A stretch of 39,525 bases of DNA from a virus. Location of the stretch: the IMG/VR virus record IMGVR_UViG_3300042560_001063, positions 1 to 39,525 of that record; one strand, written 5' to 3'. Shown piece after piece: positions 10,108 to 19,012 of the stretch. The translations under genes were made by a program, and so were the position numbers. Each line of letters opens with the position of its first letter. Positions within the stretch are counted from its first letter, which is position 1. The notes below the pieces were generated by a model. That model worked only from the letters and a program-made list of their open reading frames with translations, had not been told where the DNA came from and did no database searches.

Positions 10108-10617
10108 CTAACGCGCCAAGCCGTAGTGACGGGCGAGCGCGTCGGTGAATCTCTTAAGCCACACAAGTGCTTCGTGGGGTGACCCGCCCACATGCTCCAT
10201 GATCCACCGCCCTGCGCTTTTGCCGTTGATAGCCACAGCGTCAACCATCGGCACAGCGTACTTGCTCAGGTTCGTCAGGAAGATGATGGCATTCGCCCTT
10301 CTGGCAATAGCAGCGACCCGCATGTCGCTAAACTCAGTCGTGCCGCCGTTTACCGTCTGGCCGTAGCCGCCGATGCAGGCAGGCATCAGCCCCGCAAGGT
10401 AAGCATCCGCCTGCCATTTCTTGAGCGCGTCAGCCTGGGTGACGGTGATGTACTGGCGGCGCAAGTACCATTCCACCATGTCCTGCTCCACCCTTACCCG
10501 CCTCGTCGACCTGTCGCCCGGGTCGGGCTGTTCGACAATGTGGAACGCTTGGCGGCGGGCTTCGACCGTGCCGAAGTCGCTGCCTTGGGGGTCTTCGGCT
10601 TGTTTTCTTTTCGCCAC
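10108..10617 (-). CDS. Possible late-gene regulator in the Q position (169 aa)
   Basis: Last gene of the early leftward cluster, directly before an intrinsic terminator and the late operon, which is where phages keep Q-type antiterminators. The basic segment RSTRRVRVEQDMVEWYLRRQYIT followed by QADALKKWQADAY resembles small DNA-binding regulatory domains (DUF6456-like by eye). The C-terminal half (IIFLTNLSKYAVPMVDAV, then an amphipathic helix) is helical. The regulator call is inference from position. The GTG at 10617 makes the gene overlap the preceding one by 124 bases, so the true start is uncertain; an internal ATG lies at 10479. Confidence 0.5.
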   Translation of the reverse strand: MAKRKQAEDPQGSDFGTVEARRQAFHIVEQPDPGDRSTRRVRVEQDMVEWYLRRQYITVTQADALKKWQADAYLAGLMPACIGGYGQTVNGGTTEFSDMRVAAIARRANAIIFLTNLSKYAVPMVDAVAINGKSAGRWIMEHVGGSPHEALVWLKRFTDALARHYGLAR

Positions 10618-10769
10618 TTCTCAAACTCCGCTGCTGTTGCGTGTGCGCCATTCACTGCTTTGGAGCGGGAGGAATAAACCTCCGCGCTGTCGCTTATGAC
10701 CTCGCCGTTTGGGCTGCGGCAGGTCCAGAACCACTTGCCGCTGTTGGTCTTCCAAATTTCAATTGGCAT
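10494..10769 (-). CDS. YegP/DUF1508-like small protein (91 aa)
   Basis: The N-terminal half (KTNSGKWFWTCRSPNGEVI, then SDSAEVYSSRSKAVNG) matches the pattern of the UPF0339/DUF1508 fold: a substrate-like strand, an NGE-I turn and a Y-x-S-x2-x-A segment. The function of this family is unknown. The C-terminal third is Lys/Arg/Pro-rich, and its coding region overlaps the next gene in another frame. The ATG at 10769 has AAGGA upstream. The in-frame extension up to 10925 runs through the 5-base periodic tract and is not considered coding. Confidence 0.65.
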   Translation of the reverse strand: MPIEIWKTNSGKWFWTCRSPNGEVISDSAEVYSSRSKAVNGAHATAAEFEKWRKENKPKTPKAATSARSKPAAKRSTLSNSPTRATGRRGG

Positions 10770-10789
10770 TAGTGATTTCCTTATAAAAC

Positions 10790-10934
10790 TTCCTTGCCGT
10801 GCCTTGCTTCTCTTTGCCCCGCCTCGCAGCGCCACGCCAGGCATCGCATAACCAAGCCTTGCCGTACCCAGCTGAGCCATTCCTTGCCTCACCTTGCAGA
10901 GCCATGCATCACCTAACCACGCCACGCCATGCCC
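10790..10934 (-). repeat. Pentanucleotide-periodic leader tract (29 units)
   Basis: On the + strand every fifth base from 10792 to 10932 is C, 29 times in a row, usually as n-G-C-C-n. The base after the invariant C is never G. In the minus-strand transcript this reads as a G every five bases. The tract fills the gap between the stop at 10943 and the Shine-Dalgarno sequence of the gene starting at 10769. A 5-base period does not fit coding. It is degenerate rather than an exact tandem repeat, and is related to the tract at 11570-11667. Confidence 0.9.
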
Positions 10935-10942
10935 GGATAAAC

Positions 10943-11536
10943 CTACTCAGCCGCCATCAGTTGGGGCCTTTGCTGTGCCCACTGTGTGACCTTAAACTTG
11001 CCATATGGGCCTTTTGTGGATGGCCGGAAGTCACCCAGCCCGATCCGCGCGCCTGCGTCGTCCACAACATCACGCAGCAGCTTTTCAGTCAGGATGCCCG
11101 TGTCGAGGGTCGCAACGAATGTAAGCGCCCAGTCGTCAAACATGGGGCGATGCGACAAGATGCGACCGCCTGTTGAGGGAATGCGAACAGCCCGTGTGTC
11201 CACTCGCCACTGCTGCTTGTGTTCAATCTCGATTTCTGCGCCATCGATGTCAAAGCACGAATACAGAACGGAACTTTTTGCCGTTGTTAGCTGCTTCTTT
11301 CCGACCTTGTGAAACTGCCCGCCGTCAACGAGGCAGCGCAGCAGGTTGGGCTGCGGAATTGTCGGCTTGCCGTTCAAGCCAATGTACAGCTTGCCCTCGG
11401 CAATATCCTGCGGGGAGCCTCGGTCTTGCCCTAGCGCACTGGACCTTGTGCCGGATGTTGCAGCCAGTGCCGCCGCGTCCGTGAACTTGTTGCAAATCAG
11501 CGGGGTGATGCCCGTAATCTGAATCTCGATTTTCAT
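10943..11536 (-). CDS. Unrecognised protein flanked by periodic tracts; possible RAMP-like fold (197 aa)
   Basis: The ATG at 11536 has a very strong AAGGAGG upstream. The protein begins with a strand-rich MKIEIQITGITPLI. It continues with KPTIPQPNLLRCLVDGG and ends with a glycine/aromatic motif IGLGDFRP (165-172) and GPYGKF (176-181). An opening strand plus TPL, an IP...LR..L segment and a late G-rich loop resemble the general pattern of RAMP/Cas7-type RNA-binding proteins. This is a visual inference only and could be wrong. It lies alone between two 5-base periodic spacers, in a region where most other genes overlap, so it may bind nucleic acid and regulate its own mRNA. Confidence 0.6.
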   Translation of the reverse strand: MKIEIQITGITPLICNKFTDAAALAATSGTRSSALGQDRGSPQDIAEGKLYIGLNGKPTIPQPNLLRCLVDGGQFHKVGKKQLTTAKSSVLYSCFDIDGAEIEIEHKQQWRVDTRAVRIPSTGGRILSHRPMFDDWALTFVATLDTGILTEKLLRDVVDDAGARIGLGDFRPSTKGPYGKFKVTQWAQQRPQLMAAE

Positions 11537-11569
11537 GCTTAGTTCCTCCTTGAAAATGCTTCGAAAAAA

Positions 11570-11667
11570 CGCCTTGCCTTGCTTTTCTGCACCTTGCCGC
11601 ACCGCGCATCGCCCGACCGCGCCACGCAAATACGCGCATCGCCACGCCTCGCACTGCCAATCAAAAC
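11570..11667 (-). repeat. Pentanucleotide-periodic leader tract, second copy (19 of 20 units)
   Basis: On the + strand C occurs at 11572, 11577 and every fifth base to 11667, with one exception (A at 11632). It fills the spacer between the stop at 11668 and the Shine-Dalgarno sequence of the gene starting at 11536. It shares the n-G-C-C/A-n style of the tract at 10790-10934 without being a copy of it. No reading frame with codon periodicity is seen. Confidence 0.85.
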
Positions 11668-11892: not shown

Positions 11893-12617
11893 TGCTGCTC
11901 TCCTTTGGTTTTGATCTGGAACGCTTCACCGAAATGGGCCTGTAGTTTCGACCCGTACCTTGCCGCCAACTGCTCGGCAGCAAACTGACTTGGAACGACC
12001 AAGGTGGTGATGGAACCGTTGGGGTGGGTTGTTGAAAACCACGCCTGCCATTCGCTGACCGATAGTTTTGATTTGAAGTCTGACCACTGGGGGATTTCGT
12101 CTGCCCAATCTGTCGGGGTGGCGGGCTGCGCAACCGCTTGCGTTTGTGCAGCAGCCCGACGCCCCCGACTTAAAGCCCTAGTATTGGGCTTTAAGTCGTG
12201 GCGTCTGGCGTCTGGCGTCTGGGCTTTATCCCCCCCGTTATCCGAGGGGTTAACCCCCCCCTTAACCCACGGGTTGCCCCCACGCCTTCCGTTTTTGGCG
12301 TCTTCCCGCGCTTTTTCTTCGTCGCGGACCATCCTGCGTGACGTGATGACCCCGGCCTCAGTTTTGGTAAAAACTCCCGCACTTTCCAATTCTACCAGCA
12401 AGTTTTTTAGTTCTTTCTCGCTATCTCCAAGGATAGCCGCGAGTTGCTTAGTGGTCGGGGCTTTGCCGTTTATCAACAGATGCCCATAGGGGTCTGCGTC
12501 GTGCATCAGGCCGATCAGGTCCACCCAAAGGGACCGGGCTGCGCGGCTGCACATGCGCAGGGATGGCTCTGAACGCCAGTCAGACGGATACCATTTAAGC
12601 CACGGTCTCTTGCTCAT
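11889..12617 (-). CDS. Replication initiator with DnaA domain I-like C-terminus (242 aa)
   Basis: The N-terminal domain (RPWLKWYPSDWRSEPSLRM, then AARSLWVDLIGLMHDADPYG) matches the DUF1376-type family of phage replication initiators, with winged-helix features (APTTKQLAAILGDSEKELKNLL). A low-complexity linker (105-170) overlaps repeats in the DNA. Residues 178-235 (W-x-D-F...EWQAWF, then ITTLVVPSQFAAEQLAARYG) resemble DnaA domain I, the part that binds the DnaB helicase. No helicase or loader gene is seen, so this tail may recruit the host helicase (inference). The ATG at 12617 has AGGTGG upstream and overlaps the previous stop as ATGA. Confidence 0.75.
   Translation of the reverse strand: MSKRPWLKWYPSDWRSEPSLRMCSRAARSLWVDLIGLMHDADPYGHLLINGKAPTTKQLAAILGDSEKELKNLLVELESAGVFTKTEAGVITSRRMVRDEEKAREDAKNGRRGGNPWVKGGVNPSDNGGDKAQTPDARRHDLKPNTRALSRGRRAAAQTQAVAQPATPTDWADEIPQWSDFKSKLSVSEWQAWFSTTHPNGSITTLVVPSQFAAEQLAARYGSKLQAHFGEAFQIKTKGEQQ
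12166..12261. other. Candidate origin of replication inside the initiator gene
   Basis: A perfect 13-base inverted repeat (CGACTTAAAGCCC at 12166-12178, complement at 12186-12198, 7-base loop) is followed by three exact tandem GGCGTCT units (12200-12220). Then come a C7 run (12230-12236), a 12-base palindrome GGGGTTAACCCC (12246-12257) and a C8 run (12254-12261). Repeats inside the initiator gene are the arrangement of the lambda O-gene origin. The segment corresponds to the low-complexity linker of the protein. Confidence 0.55.
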
Positions 12618-12955
12618 GCTGCCCACCTAGATTTGCCGCGCTGGTTGAACCTTGGCTGCAGCTTCATGATGAGCCTGGCTTCCCACATCAAATGCTCGCC
12701 GTACCTACGTGGAACTCTGTATTTCCCGGTGATGCACTGGTCCGCGCCGCCGTTTTCAAAGTCGCCCCAAGGCGTGTGTATGTTCTTCGCGTAGCCGTGC
12801 CTGATGTTGTGCCCGCCACCACCCCTTGAGAACCGCTGCCTCAAGTTGAGGGATTGACCGACATAAACAGCCTTCCCGTGAAGGAAAATCACATAGACGC
12901 CAGCACGCGCGGGCAACTCATTCCCCGTGGGGTCAAATTCAATCCAGCGGCTCAC
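12614..12955 (-). CDS. GIY-YIG nuclease-domain protein (113 aa)
   Basis: A single GIY-YIG domain: AGVYVIF and AVYVGQS form the GIY/YIG strands, followed by NLRQRFS with the catalytic Arg. WEARLIMKLQPRFNQRGK supplies the Glu and the distal Asn. The GTG at 12955 overlaps the methyltransferase stop as GTGA. Possible roles include a homing-type or anti-restriction nuclease, or a repair/recombination nuclease acting with the neighbouring DNA-modification genes. There is no separate DNA-binding domain, so a free-standing homing enzyme is less likely. Confidence 0.8.
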   Translation of the reverse strand: MSRWIEFDPTGNELPARAGVYVIFLHGKAVYVGQSLNLRQRFSRGGGGHNIRHGYAKNIHTPWGDFENGGADQCITGKYRVPRRYGEHLMWEARLIMKLQPRFNQRGKSRWAA

Positions 12956-13764
12956 AGCAGCGCCTCCTGCTTTGGCTTGGGCGGCTCGTCCTTGAACAGC
13001 CGGGGTTGGCGGTAGGCGTCGTCGATGCGCTTGCAGGCTATGTCGAAATACTCCCGTTGCCACTCTATGCCGATGAACTTCCGCCCAAGGTTGACGCACG
13101 CAACGCCAGTCGTCCCACTGCCCATAAATGGGTCTAAAACAATATCGTCTGGCCTTGATGTCTTTTCTACAAGCCACCTCATCGCCCCGATTGGTTTGGG
13201 ACAAGGATGCCCATTTTTTTCAGCGGCCTCTGTTAAAGCGCGACCTGTAGGCAAGATGCCGCGCCCCGCTCTGAAATCGTTGCCATAAAAAAGAATTGGC
13301 TGAAAATTTGTGAAGCCCCACGGGCCGTGCGTGACTGATGCAGGAGTCCAAAAACATCCGATGTCTCTTGGCCTTGGGTACAGATGCAAGCACCTTGTGC
13401 CGGGTGTAATGGCCGCCCAGTTACACTTTTGAAGGCACATCTCGACAACTTCAATTACAGTGCCGGATATATAATCTTCCGTGTCAGCCCAATCGCCATT
13501 GTAAGACCCCTTTCCATTTTTTTTTGCGTCCCCGCCTCTGCCACCGTCAATTCCGTAAGGCGGGTCAGTGATGACTGACTGAACTATTGTGAGGTGGGGG
13601 ACGATTTCCCGCGCGTCCCCAAAGTATAAAATAGCGTCCCCAATCGTTGTGCACTCCCCATGCCGCAACAGTTCTTGCTCTCTTTGGCGCATCTCCCGCA
13701 TGGCATCTATCGCCACATCGTAGGATTTGCGGGAATTTTCGGCAGGGTCGTAATCGTCAGCCAT
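12952..13764 (-). CDS. DNA methyltransferase A, beta-class (270 aa)
   Basis: An N6-adenine or N4-cytosine methyltransferase: motif IV DPPYGID comes early and the AdoMet motif I region LDPFMGSGTTGVA comes late, the beta-class order. The first ~25 and last ~65 residues are almost identical to methyltransferase B (14658-15410), while the central target-recognition part differs. The ATG at 13764 overlaps the previous stop (TGATG). Likely roles are protection of phage DNA from host restriction or regulation. Target specificity cannot be read from sequence. Confidence 0.88.
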   Translation of the reverse strand: MADDYDPAENSRKSYDVAIDAMREMRQREQELLRHGECTTIGDAILYFGDAREIVPHLTIVQSVITDPPYGIDGGRGGDAKKNGKGSYNGDWADTEDYISGTVIEVVEMCLQKCNWAAITPGTRCLHLYPRPRDIGCFWTPASVTHGPWGFTNFQPILFYGNDFRAGRGILPTGRALTEAAEKNGHPCPKPIGAMRWLVEKTSRPDDIVLDPFMGSGTTGVACVNLGRKFIGIEWQREYFDIACKRIDDAYRQPRLFKDEPPKPKQEALL

Positions 13765-14045
13765 CAATGCATCCTCGTCACTGTGTACGTGCCGTCAGGC
13801 TTGGTCCGTATGCTTCCGCACATTCCTTTCACATACAGGCCGCTGACCTTCGCCTTAGCCTCACGGAAGGTTGCGAAGGTTCTGACCTCGCCTATCTTCC
13901 AATCCCTCAACGGCGACCATCGCGCGTGCACCCGCTTTTGTTCGTAAGCTGTGCGCAGCTTCATCTGGTCTATCTCTTGCTGCGTCGGTGCGCGCCTTGG
14001 GTGAACGCCAGGGTCGCCCATGAGTAGTGCGGTAAGGTCCTTCAT
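13764..14045 (-). CDS. Hypothetical protein between methyltransferase genes (93 aa)
   Basis: Overlaps its neighbours as ATGA (start) and TGATG (stop). It is basic and mixed alpha/beta, with a C-terminal strand pattern (GSIRTKPDGTYTVTRM) and a central FATFREAKAKVSGLY. No family is recognised. It belongs to the DNA-modification/replication cluster by position only. Confidence 0.55.
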   Translation of the reverse strand: MKDLTALLMGDPGVHPRRAPTQQEIDQMKLRTAYEQKRVHARWSPLRDWKIGEVRTFATFREAKAKVSGLYVKGMCGSIRTKPDGTYTVTRMH

Positions 14046-14347: not shown

Positions 14348-14661
14348 TAGACTGTCTCCACGTCGATGTTGAGGAAGGCCCGCATCATCTTGGCCTTCAG
14401 TTTGAACTCGGATGTGATGAAGCCCTTCACGTCACAGACAACGCGGCGCTGGTTCTCGAAGTAGACGAAATCGGCCACGTAATCGCAGATGTGAATGCCG
14501 TTGTGCTCAAGCCGGAACCGCACCTGGCGTTCCAGCTTGGAAATCTCTTTGGCGCGCTCGCGCAGTTTCAGCACCTGCCAGTGCTTGTGTTCTTTCTTGC
14601 TCGCAAAATAGCCATCCTCATCACGGACTGGCTGGGCTCGATATTTGTTGACGATCTTCAA
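14347..14661 (-). CDS. DUF1064-type nuclease-like protein (104 aa)
   Basis: Matches the DUF1064 pattern: NKYRAQPV at the start, DGYFASKKEHKHWQVL, then I-x-K-L-x2-Q-V-x-F, ICDYVADFVYF and VVCDVKGFITSEFKLKAKMM. E23 with D60/D75 and K77 in the VADF and VCDVKG motifs are consistent with a PD-(D/E)xK nuclease fold. The TTG start overlaps the methyltransferase B stop (TTGA). Such proteins accompany phage replication and recombination genes. A Holliday-junction or replication-fork nuclease role is possible but not shown. Confidence 0.7.
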   Translation of the reverse strand: MKIVNKYRAQPVRDEDGYFASKKEHKHWQVLKLRERAKEISKLERQVRFRLEHNGIHICDYVADFVYFENQRRVVCDVKGFITSEFKLKAKMMRAFLNIDVETV

Positions 14662-15410
14662 AGCAGCGCCTCCTGCTTTGGCTTAGGTGGTTCGTCCTTG
14701 AAAAGCCGGGGCTGGCGGTAAGCGTCGTCGATGCGCTTGCAAGCTATGTCGAAATACTTCGGCTCCAACTCAATCCCGATGAACTTCCGCCCTAGCTTGG
14801 CACAGGCAACACCTGTAGTGCCGGAACCCATGAAGGGGTCTAGGATGGTGCGCGGGCTTTCGAGTTGCTCTATCGACCACTGCATAATTTCGACGGGCTT
14901 CTGCGTCGGGTGCTGCGCGCCGTCAAGCATGAGGGCAACGCGGTTTAGTTCAAAGATGCGCAACGCCCCTTGACGGCTGGTCCAAGCGAGTTCGCCGTCT
15001 GACTGATTGATGCGTTGCCCCTTATCCCAGACAAGCCACTTCCCGGTCGGGGGGAACAGGTCTGCAAAGTAATTCCCGCCCCAAATGACGTGCTGTGCGC
15101 CCGCACTCAGTAAGGCGGCGAACGTTTCAGGCTCAGGGCGTGAGGCGTCCCAGCCCATGAAGTCGTAAGCCTTGCGCCCACCGTGCCCGCCTGTTGTCCG
15201 CTTCTGCCCGTCCTTGCCAATCCCATAAGGCGGGTCAGTAACCACAGCATCCACCTTCGGAAGCAAAGGAAGGATTTCCCGGCAGTCGCCCAAATACAGC
15301 GTGGCATCCCCCACCCGCTCACACCTGAACGAAGCGAGTTTTTCCCGCATGGCTTCTATCGCCACGTCGTATGACTTGCGGGAGTTTTCGGCGGGGTCGT
15401 AATCGGTCAT
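14658..15410 (-). CDS. DNA methyltransferase B, beta-class (250 aa)
   Basis: Motif IV TDPPYGIG lies near the N-terminus and motif I LDPFMGSGTTGVA near the C-terminus. The central part contains HVIWGGNYFADLFPP and QHPTQKPVEIM, as in D12/CcrM-like N6-adenine methyltransferases. It shares nearly identical termini with methyltransferase A but has a different middle. It starts at 15410 with AGGTGACGG upstream, just after an intrinsic terminator. Probably protects phage DNA against host restriction. Confidence 0.88.
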   Translation of the reverse strand: MTDYDPAENSRKSYDVAIEAMREKLASFRCERVGDATLYLGDCREILPLLPKVDAVVTDPPYGIGKDGQKRTTGGHGGRKAYDFMGWDASRPEPETFAALLSAGAQHVIWGGNYFADLFPPTGKWLVWDKGQRINQSDGELAWTSRQGALRIFELNRVALMLDGAQHPTQKPVEIMQWSIEQLESPRTILDPFMGSGTTGVACAKLGRKFIGIELEPKYFDIACKRIDDAYRQPRLFKDEPPKPKQEALL

Positions 15411-17973: not shown

Positions 17974-18374
17974 AGCGACCCACTATACCGCACCGCGTTA
18001 TGGTCAACGTCGCCATCAGTCAGGGAGAGCGCGGGGAAGTCCGCTGCCCGATCTGCCACACAGGGCTGGCGGCAATGGATGACCGCATTCTTGAACACAT
18101 GGTCCCGCATGAACTGGGCGGCTCAAGCGACGAAACAAACTTGCGCTGGGTTCACAAGGAATGCGCCGCAAAGAAAACCAACGGCAACAAGGCCACGGTA
18201 GCAGGTGGCGACATTCACAAAATAGCAAAGGCCAAGCGGCTGCAGCGCGCCCATGAAGCGCATGAGGCAGTGGTGCTTGGCGCGGCTGAGAAGCCCCCAG
18301 GCACGATCAAGAGCCGGGGCTTCGACAAGACGCTTCGCAAACGCATGAACGGACAAGTGGAGAAAAGATCATGA
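17970..18374 (+). CDS. HNH endonuclease-like protein (134 aa)
   Basis: The core VRCPICHTGL (C-x2-C), LEHMVPHELGGSSDETNLRWVHKECAAKK carries the His-Asn-His arrangement and a further Cys for the zinc knuckle. The tail is basic. The GTG at 17970 overlaps the previous stop as GTGA and has GGGAGG upstream. It lies directly before the ERF annealing gene, so a recombination-associated nuclease is plausible. Confidence 0.8.
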   Translation: MKRPTIPHRVMVNVAISQGERGEVRCPICHTGLAAMDDRILEHMVPHELGGSSDETNLRWVHKECAAKKTNGNKATVAGGDIHKIAKAKRLQRAHEAHEAVVLGAAEKPPGTIKSRGFDKTLRKRMNGQVEKRS

Positions 18375-19012
18375 GACAGTCAGAGCAAGTAAACGAGATC
18401 GCCGCCGCCCTTGCGGTCGCACAGGGCAAGATCAAAAGCGCCCTGAAGGGCAACGTGAACCCGCACTTCAAGAGCAAGTACGCGGACTTGGCGGCAGTCA
18501 AGGAAGCCTGCGGGGACGCATTGTCAGCGAACGGCATTGCAGTCGTTCAGGCGCATGGGTTCGAAGGCGAGCGGTTCATCCTCACAACCCGGCTCATTCA
18601 CAAGTCGGGCCAGTGGCTCGAAAGCCAGTACCTTATCAAGCCGGTCAAAGACGATCCGCAGGGCTACGCCTCGGCCACGACTTACGCGCGGAGAATAAGC
18701 CTCTCAAGCATGGTGGGCGTGGTCGCCGACGAGGACGACGATGGAAACGCAGCCAGCCAGCGCGGGAATTACGAGCCGCCAGCAAAGCCCGCACCACGCG
18801 AGGACGCCACGCTGGCAAAGGCCAAGTCGTTTGTTGATGACGCTATTGCCGCCATCGGCACGCTCACGGACGCCACTTCGCTGAATGCCTGGGTGGAAGC
18901 CAACAAGACGAAGCTGGAGCGCCTTCGCGATGTCTATGACGAAGGCTCGCGCCAAGTGTCGGGGGCTATCCTTGAGACGCGCAAGGCGCTGATGCGGGGC
19001 GCAGCTGAATGA
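18371..19012 (+). CDS. ERF-family single-strand annealing protein (213 aa)
   Basis: Typical ERF N-terminal domain: IAAALAVAQGKIKSALKG, NPHFKSKYADLAAVKEA, then GYASATTYARRISLSSMVGVVADEDDDGN near residue 120, the most conserved segment of the family. The C-terminal part is a variable helical domain. ERF forms rings on ssDNA and pairs complementary strands, supporting recombination and circularisation of headful-packaged DNA. ATGA overlap with the HNH gene. Confidence 0.9.
   Translation: MRQSEQVNEIAAALAVAQGKIKSALKGNVNPHFKSKYADLAAVKEACGDALSANGIAVVQAHGFEGERFILTTRLIHKSGQWLESQYLIKPVKDDPQGYASATTYARRISLSSMVGVVADEDDDGNAASQRGNYEPPAKPAPREDATLAKAKSFVDDAIAAIGTLTDATSLNAWVEANKTKLERLRDVYDEGSRQVSGAILETRKALMRGAAE

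Follow-up and report, generated by a model that had tools for sequence, protein, structure and literature searches.

What is encoded by a stretch of phage DNA in which one base is fixed every five nucleotides over 29 consecutive units, while other bases of each unit vary? This question is raised by an intergenic track in the window, as we call the whole stretch of viral DNA analyzed here (39,525 nucleotides, IMG/VR record IMGVR_UViG_3300042560_001063). Judging from its gene content, which includes an integrase, a portal protein, a terminase and head genes, the phage appears to be temperate and tailed, and no near relative was found among cultured phages by the searches made.

Pentamer arrays around the gene of a 197-aa protein

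On the plus strand, C occupies 29 of the 29 positions 10792, 10797 ... 10932, is found at neither 10787 nor 10937, and is never followed by G; the position count agrees in every particular with the original prediction of 29 units with an invariant C. The probability of such a run is 5e-16 if the C content of the genome is used and 1.5e-11 with the local one (42%), so that the periodicity is not due to chance, as had been claimed (order 10^-15). A period-5 chi-square scan of the window gave its top value, 100.5, at this track, named array A (mean 12.4, s.d. 6.5), and a second peak of 73.0 at 11568. The informative strand is the minus strand, which is the coding strand of the flanking genes. Array A (10788-10932, minus) consists there of 29 uninterrupted GCNNG-type units reading G-[C/T/A]-N-N-[G/T/A], mostly GGC-NN. 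The NN bases, in RNA order, are AT GT GT TA GA AT TC AA GA AA (units 1-10), AT TC TG AC AA TT TA GA CT GT (units 11-20) and GC GA GG AA GA AA AC AA AG (units 21-29). Shuffled versions fold slightly less well than the array itself (z -1.16), which speaks against the structure-free spacer formerly proposed, and no special stability of its secondary structure was detected in this comparison. No Rfam match at gathering score was obtained with the arrays of the window or with those of four other loci, and nothing relevant turned up in the literature on pentanucleotide repeats.

The second peak corresponds to a sister array, array B (11568-11661, minus), which had previously been overlooked and is the only other such place in the window. 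It lies about 0.6 kb upstream of array A and comprises about 18 units, one of which, TATTT (11632-11628), departs from the pattern. A 14-unit stretch (11657-11588, minus; NN bases AG GA GT GA GC TT GT GC CG GA GC GC AA GC) is followed by three AA units and then by a tail. In the sequence, this AU-rich tail and the ribosome-binding site (AGGAGG) of the next gene occupy positions 11537-11567 (minus). The two arrays flank this gene (10943-11536, minus), which encodes the 197-aa protein P0001. Array A is followed by an AU-rich stretch (10770-10787, minus), presumed to be an RNA 3' tail, which contains the ribosome-binding site (AAGGA) of the gene downstream; comparable AT-rich stretches also follow the arrays in relatives. 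The downstream gene (10494-10769, minus) encodes a 91-aa DUF1508 protein. This protein was considered as an accessory component, and its membership in the system is unsupported because the gene is not kept beside the P0001 gene in relatives; none of the neighbors checked is. The ERF protein, which had been put forward as a partner, does not fit this role: its gene (18371-19012) is on the plus strand, about 7 kb away and outside the operon. Upstream of the locus, the window also carries two N6/N4 DNA methyltransferase genes (12952-13767 and 14658-15410, minus) and, at positions 12199-12275, short tandem repeats (TGGCGTC x3.4 and TTAACCCCCCCCTTAACCCACGGG x2.1) located in a gene showing a weak match with the N-terminal part of DnaA.

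P0001 has no Pfam family, and its only PHROG match is phrog_4652, a family of unknown function. When a profile of 20 relatives was run against the PDB with hmmsearch, the sole convincing match with a solved structure was 36pp, the 'SUSP1 Vipr protein' (six chains, E 5.3e-11). The AlphaFold model of P0001 (pLDDT 79) matches the Csm3/Cas7 backbone subunits of CRISPR effectors over its length (Foldseek E 2e-5; VIA Z 11.3, 142 residues, rmsd 2.9 Å). P0001 is thus a homologue of the SUSP1 Vipr protein with a predicted Csm3/Cas7 RAMP fold, and the suggestion that the adjacent 197-aa protein might be the binder of the track is strengthened by this homology and fold.

VIPR (Viral Interference Programmable Repeat) is a phage system of RNA-guided DNA recognition described in a 2026 preprint (PMC13142463; bioRxiv 2026.04.26.720920). 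It combines a small RAMP protein, Vipr, with vrRNAs composed of 9-16 YNNGG repeats, in which GGY is conserved and NN is hypervariable; the NN bases pair with double-stranded DNA, one target base being skipped between pairs (PMC13142463). The Vipr-vrRNA complex represses transcription, and the natural guides are aimed at competing phages (PMC13142463). The features by which the system was defined include a vrRNA of about 100 nt co-purifying with Vipr and a conserved structured 3' tail, and an accessory gene, vap, is typical but not universal (PMC13142463). Seven types have been distinguished, staggered arrays with overlapping vrRNAs are mentioned, and the experiments were carried out mainly on the systems of phage SUSP1 and of a Pseudomonas fulva prophage (PMC13142463). 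In a positive control on SUSP1, the array finder used here recovered the four published arrays (13-16 units each), of which one precedes the two genes and three follow them.

Arrays in relatives and the one-skip code

Relatives of the 197-aa protein are encoded at 27 IMG/VR loci, one of which (L002) is identical to the window. Period-5 arrays occur around the gene in all 27, before it, after it or on both sides; the absence of the period in related phages, which was to have refuted the original prediction, was therefore not observed. What these relatives preserve is the period and the fixed bases, not the sequence itself: between close relatives such as L009 and L010, whole units have been gained or lost in phase. 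Without interruption, arrays run to as many as 71 units (L015). In a set of 474 arrays, taken from both viral and cellular loci, G is the first base in 96% and the closing base in 79%, C or T comes second in 92%, and the entropies of the two free bases are 1.9 and 2.0 bits. On 11 larger contigs, 38 arrays lie less than 1 kb from vipr (31 kb of sequence), as compared with 23 in the other 447 kb, and those near vipr are all on its coding strand. Arrays were also present near the gene in seven of seven cellular homologues found in bacterial genomes with a protein profile, although one of these genomes (G040) had originally been drawn in by the array pattern, unlike the other six.

Some loci show additional features. 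A member of the clade on a bacterial chromosome (G262, L458) contains one in-frame TAA and is apparently broken, with two arrays downstream. A single 52-kb contig (G008; L393, L395) carries two vipr genes, each flanked by arrays. Solitary arrays of 13-24 units are located far from vipr across the genomes of relatives (e.g., L395:825-929, L396:11014-11098), and two such arrays supply the best target matches of all. In L048, L055, L107 and part of L016 (e.g., L048:5446-5710, minus), the period-5 arrays have a fixed G and no closing G (GCGTT GCGGC GAGAG ...), and may follow a different consensus of this kind. Period-5 arrays of the GANNG, GAACN or GACNN type on other viral contigs (L131:13637-13721, L120:4093-4197, L139:1257-1411) may be either further guide arrays built on another fixed motif or repeats of an unrelated kind. 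Two cultured Gordonia phages, Trine (L464:3119-3195) and MakoManhole (L465:2864-3090), encode distant relatives of Vipr that bear the annotation hypothetical protein, with short array-like stretches downstream; the gene after the Vipr relative of MakoManhole is annotated as a DNA binding protein.

The code was examined by reading guides from the arrays, masking the arrays and searching the remaining sequence with 0-3 skipped bases. With 114 guides and 1.35 Mb (both strands counted), there were 12 matches scoring at least 18 with one skip, versus 0, 1 and 0 with skips of 0, 2 and 3, and none in each of three shuffles of the unit order; these 12 matches are not independent, as they originate from six guides. 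When vipr genes were taken as targets, 24 guide-gene pairs scored at least 13 at one skip, versus 0, 1 and 1 at the other skips and 0-3 in 24 shuffles; these pairs come from few guides, four of which reach 14. In all but one of the 24 pairs, the skip falls on codon position 3, and the spectrum of the free bases agrees with that of codon positions 1-2 in the sense direction (r 0.81) better than with any other phase or strand. At the level of sequence matches, the published one-skip rule therefore holds in the Vipr clade to which the window belongs.

Candidate targets and alternative explanations

The names given here to target genes were read off translations and not obtained by a family search. 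Between a guide of G008 and a VRR-NUC-like gene of G010, 27 of 28 bases agree (14 units); in the opposite direction, a G010 guide agrees at 28 of 30 bases (15 units) with the gene of a 512-aa protein of G008 and G009, so that the phages G008 and G010 would appear to target each other. Units 34-47 of the 55-unit array of L020 match a serine-recombinase-like gene in three relatives, which suggests that guides can be read from inside long arrays; such arrays probably carry several guides. Foreign vipr genes are matched as well, by guides of L020, L017, L026 and L003. The vipr copies of L020 and L017 themselves mismatch their own guides at 4/20 and 5/20 bases, respectively, as against 1 and 2 in the best foreign copy. 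The owner of the guide itself has a homologue of the target, with 43-71% identity, in each of the three target families checked.

As regards the guides of the window, no convincing target of A or B was found in IMG/VR, where exact 8-unit scans gave extensions at chance level only, and neither guide matched any of 389 genomes of one bacterial order at up to 3 mismatches. The best match of array B (24/26 bases, 13/14 guide units), in a small gene encoding DLEAWVAREAAKA in L312, L317 and L322, is not claimed, as there were 74 conditioned hits and the number expected by chance is near 0.1. The layout of array B is that of the best-supported guide (14 units, AA units, tail), and the 29 units of array A could hold two guides. 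The middle units of guide A would fit the codons of a [FL]Y[DE]LVA[DE]G-like peptide, which bears some resemblance to excisionase-type helix-turn-helix proteins.

In view of the protein homology, the fold, the anatomy and position of the arrays and the code tested in the clade, the periodic track is very probably a vrRNA array of a VIPR system. The idea of an RNA loading track with 5 nt per subunit came close, since the data are best explained by an RNA read at about one subunit per 5 nt; what did not stand is that it should be merely a leader. A cis-acting leader, in which Vipr or a TRAP-like ring would bind the GGC-N2 repeats and repress downstream translation with no targeting, is nevertheless worth considering, because the arrays of the window end beside ribosome-binding sites and because the sites of TRAP (the trp RNA-binding attenuation protein), which consist of about 11 (G/U)AG triplets with 2-3 nt spacers, have a similar period. 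We consider this explanation quite improbable: the free bases are informative and match genes of rivals at a one-base skip far above shuffles, which also tells against the translation-rate device or spacer formerly envisaged; array lengths reach 71 units; solitary arrays are located far from vipr; and the triplet is GGC or GGT, not (G/U)AG.

Still less probable is a simple tandem repeat or recombination hotspot joining phage modules and maintained by slippage. The gain and loss of whole units between L009 and L010 and the position of the arrays between genes would be expected in that case, but Tandem Repeats Finder detects no array there, the units being unlike one another, and a fixed G is combined with NN bases of nearly maximal entropy. 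Nor would such a repeat account for the location of all the near-vipr arrays on the vipr coding strand, or for target matches in relatives exceeding those of shuffled guides. A decayed coding sequence that has kept its codon periodicity is hardly credible, even though pentapeptide-repeat genes yield DNA with a period of 5 or 15 and were seen among the pattern matches: the period here is 5, not 3 or 15, no reading frame is needed, and the relatives retain the period without the sequence or the frame, in agreement with the original argument that a period of 5 rules out coding.

Proposed function and comparison with known systems

In the VIPR reading, the function of the locus in this phage may be outlined by analogy with the published SUSP1 work, from which RNA processing, complex formation, DNA binding and repression are inferred. 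The minus-strand transcript would bear the two arrays of GGY-NN pentamers, one on either side of vipr. The single-domain Cas7-like Vipr would coat this RNA, with one subunit per pentamer, gripping the fixed GGY and presenting the free NN outward, and the NN pairs would jointly read the target DNA, passing over each third base. As the skip falls mostly on the wobble position of codons, a guide would track the encoded protein and tolerate synonymous changes. The bound complexes may then repress the transcription of genes of competing phages.

This kind of system is already known, from a very recent preprint, and the locus in the window is a new member of it. VIPR has been proposed, very recently, as the forerunner of CRISPR. 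Since the clade is distant from SUSP1, the one-skip code could be checked independently of the original data, and was found to hold. The clade also offers a pair of phages that seem to target each other and matches within arrays of up to 55 units, and the diverged copies of the targeted gene held by the owners of the guides make self-avoidance testable.

Among the known systems, TRAP sites are similar in that their triplets are 2 nt apart, with a period of about 5, and the locus in the window differs from them in its mostly GGC or GGT triplet, its open-ended number of units, its informative spacers and a protein that is a RAMP and not TRAP. The Class 1 CRISPR effectors share the RAMP fold of their Csm3/Cas7 backbone and, presumably, oligomerization on a guide RNA, whereas the bases of the guide in the window are interrupted after every 2 nt; direct repeats of the CRISPR type with spacers are absent at the locus, and no Cas family was detected in the neighboring genes scanned. 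The differences from the published VIPR systems are the following: the Vipr of the window is only distantly similar to that of SUSP1 (profile E 5e-11), the triplet is GGC and not GGT, the units are looser than GGY (D-G-H), 29 of them follow one another without interruption (in relatives as many as 71), against the published 9-16, the presumed tail is short and AU-rich, and none of the neighbors checked as a possible accessory gene is conserved beside vipr. It can be proposed, although only tentatively, that the clade is a distinct one-gene variant of VIPR, with no accessory protein, long uninterrupted arrays placed in the vipr leader and in that of the following gene, scattered solitary arrays, reciprocal targeting between sister phages and diverged copies of the targets kept by the guide owners. 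What the clade has in common with VIPR (SUSP1, type II and relatives) is the Vipr RAMP homologue, the flanking GGY-NN arrays on the same strand, the one-nucleotide-skip code with its skip at the wobble position, and candidate targets in competitors, including other vipr genes.
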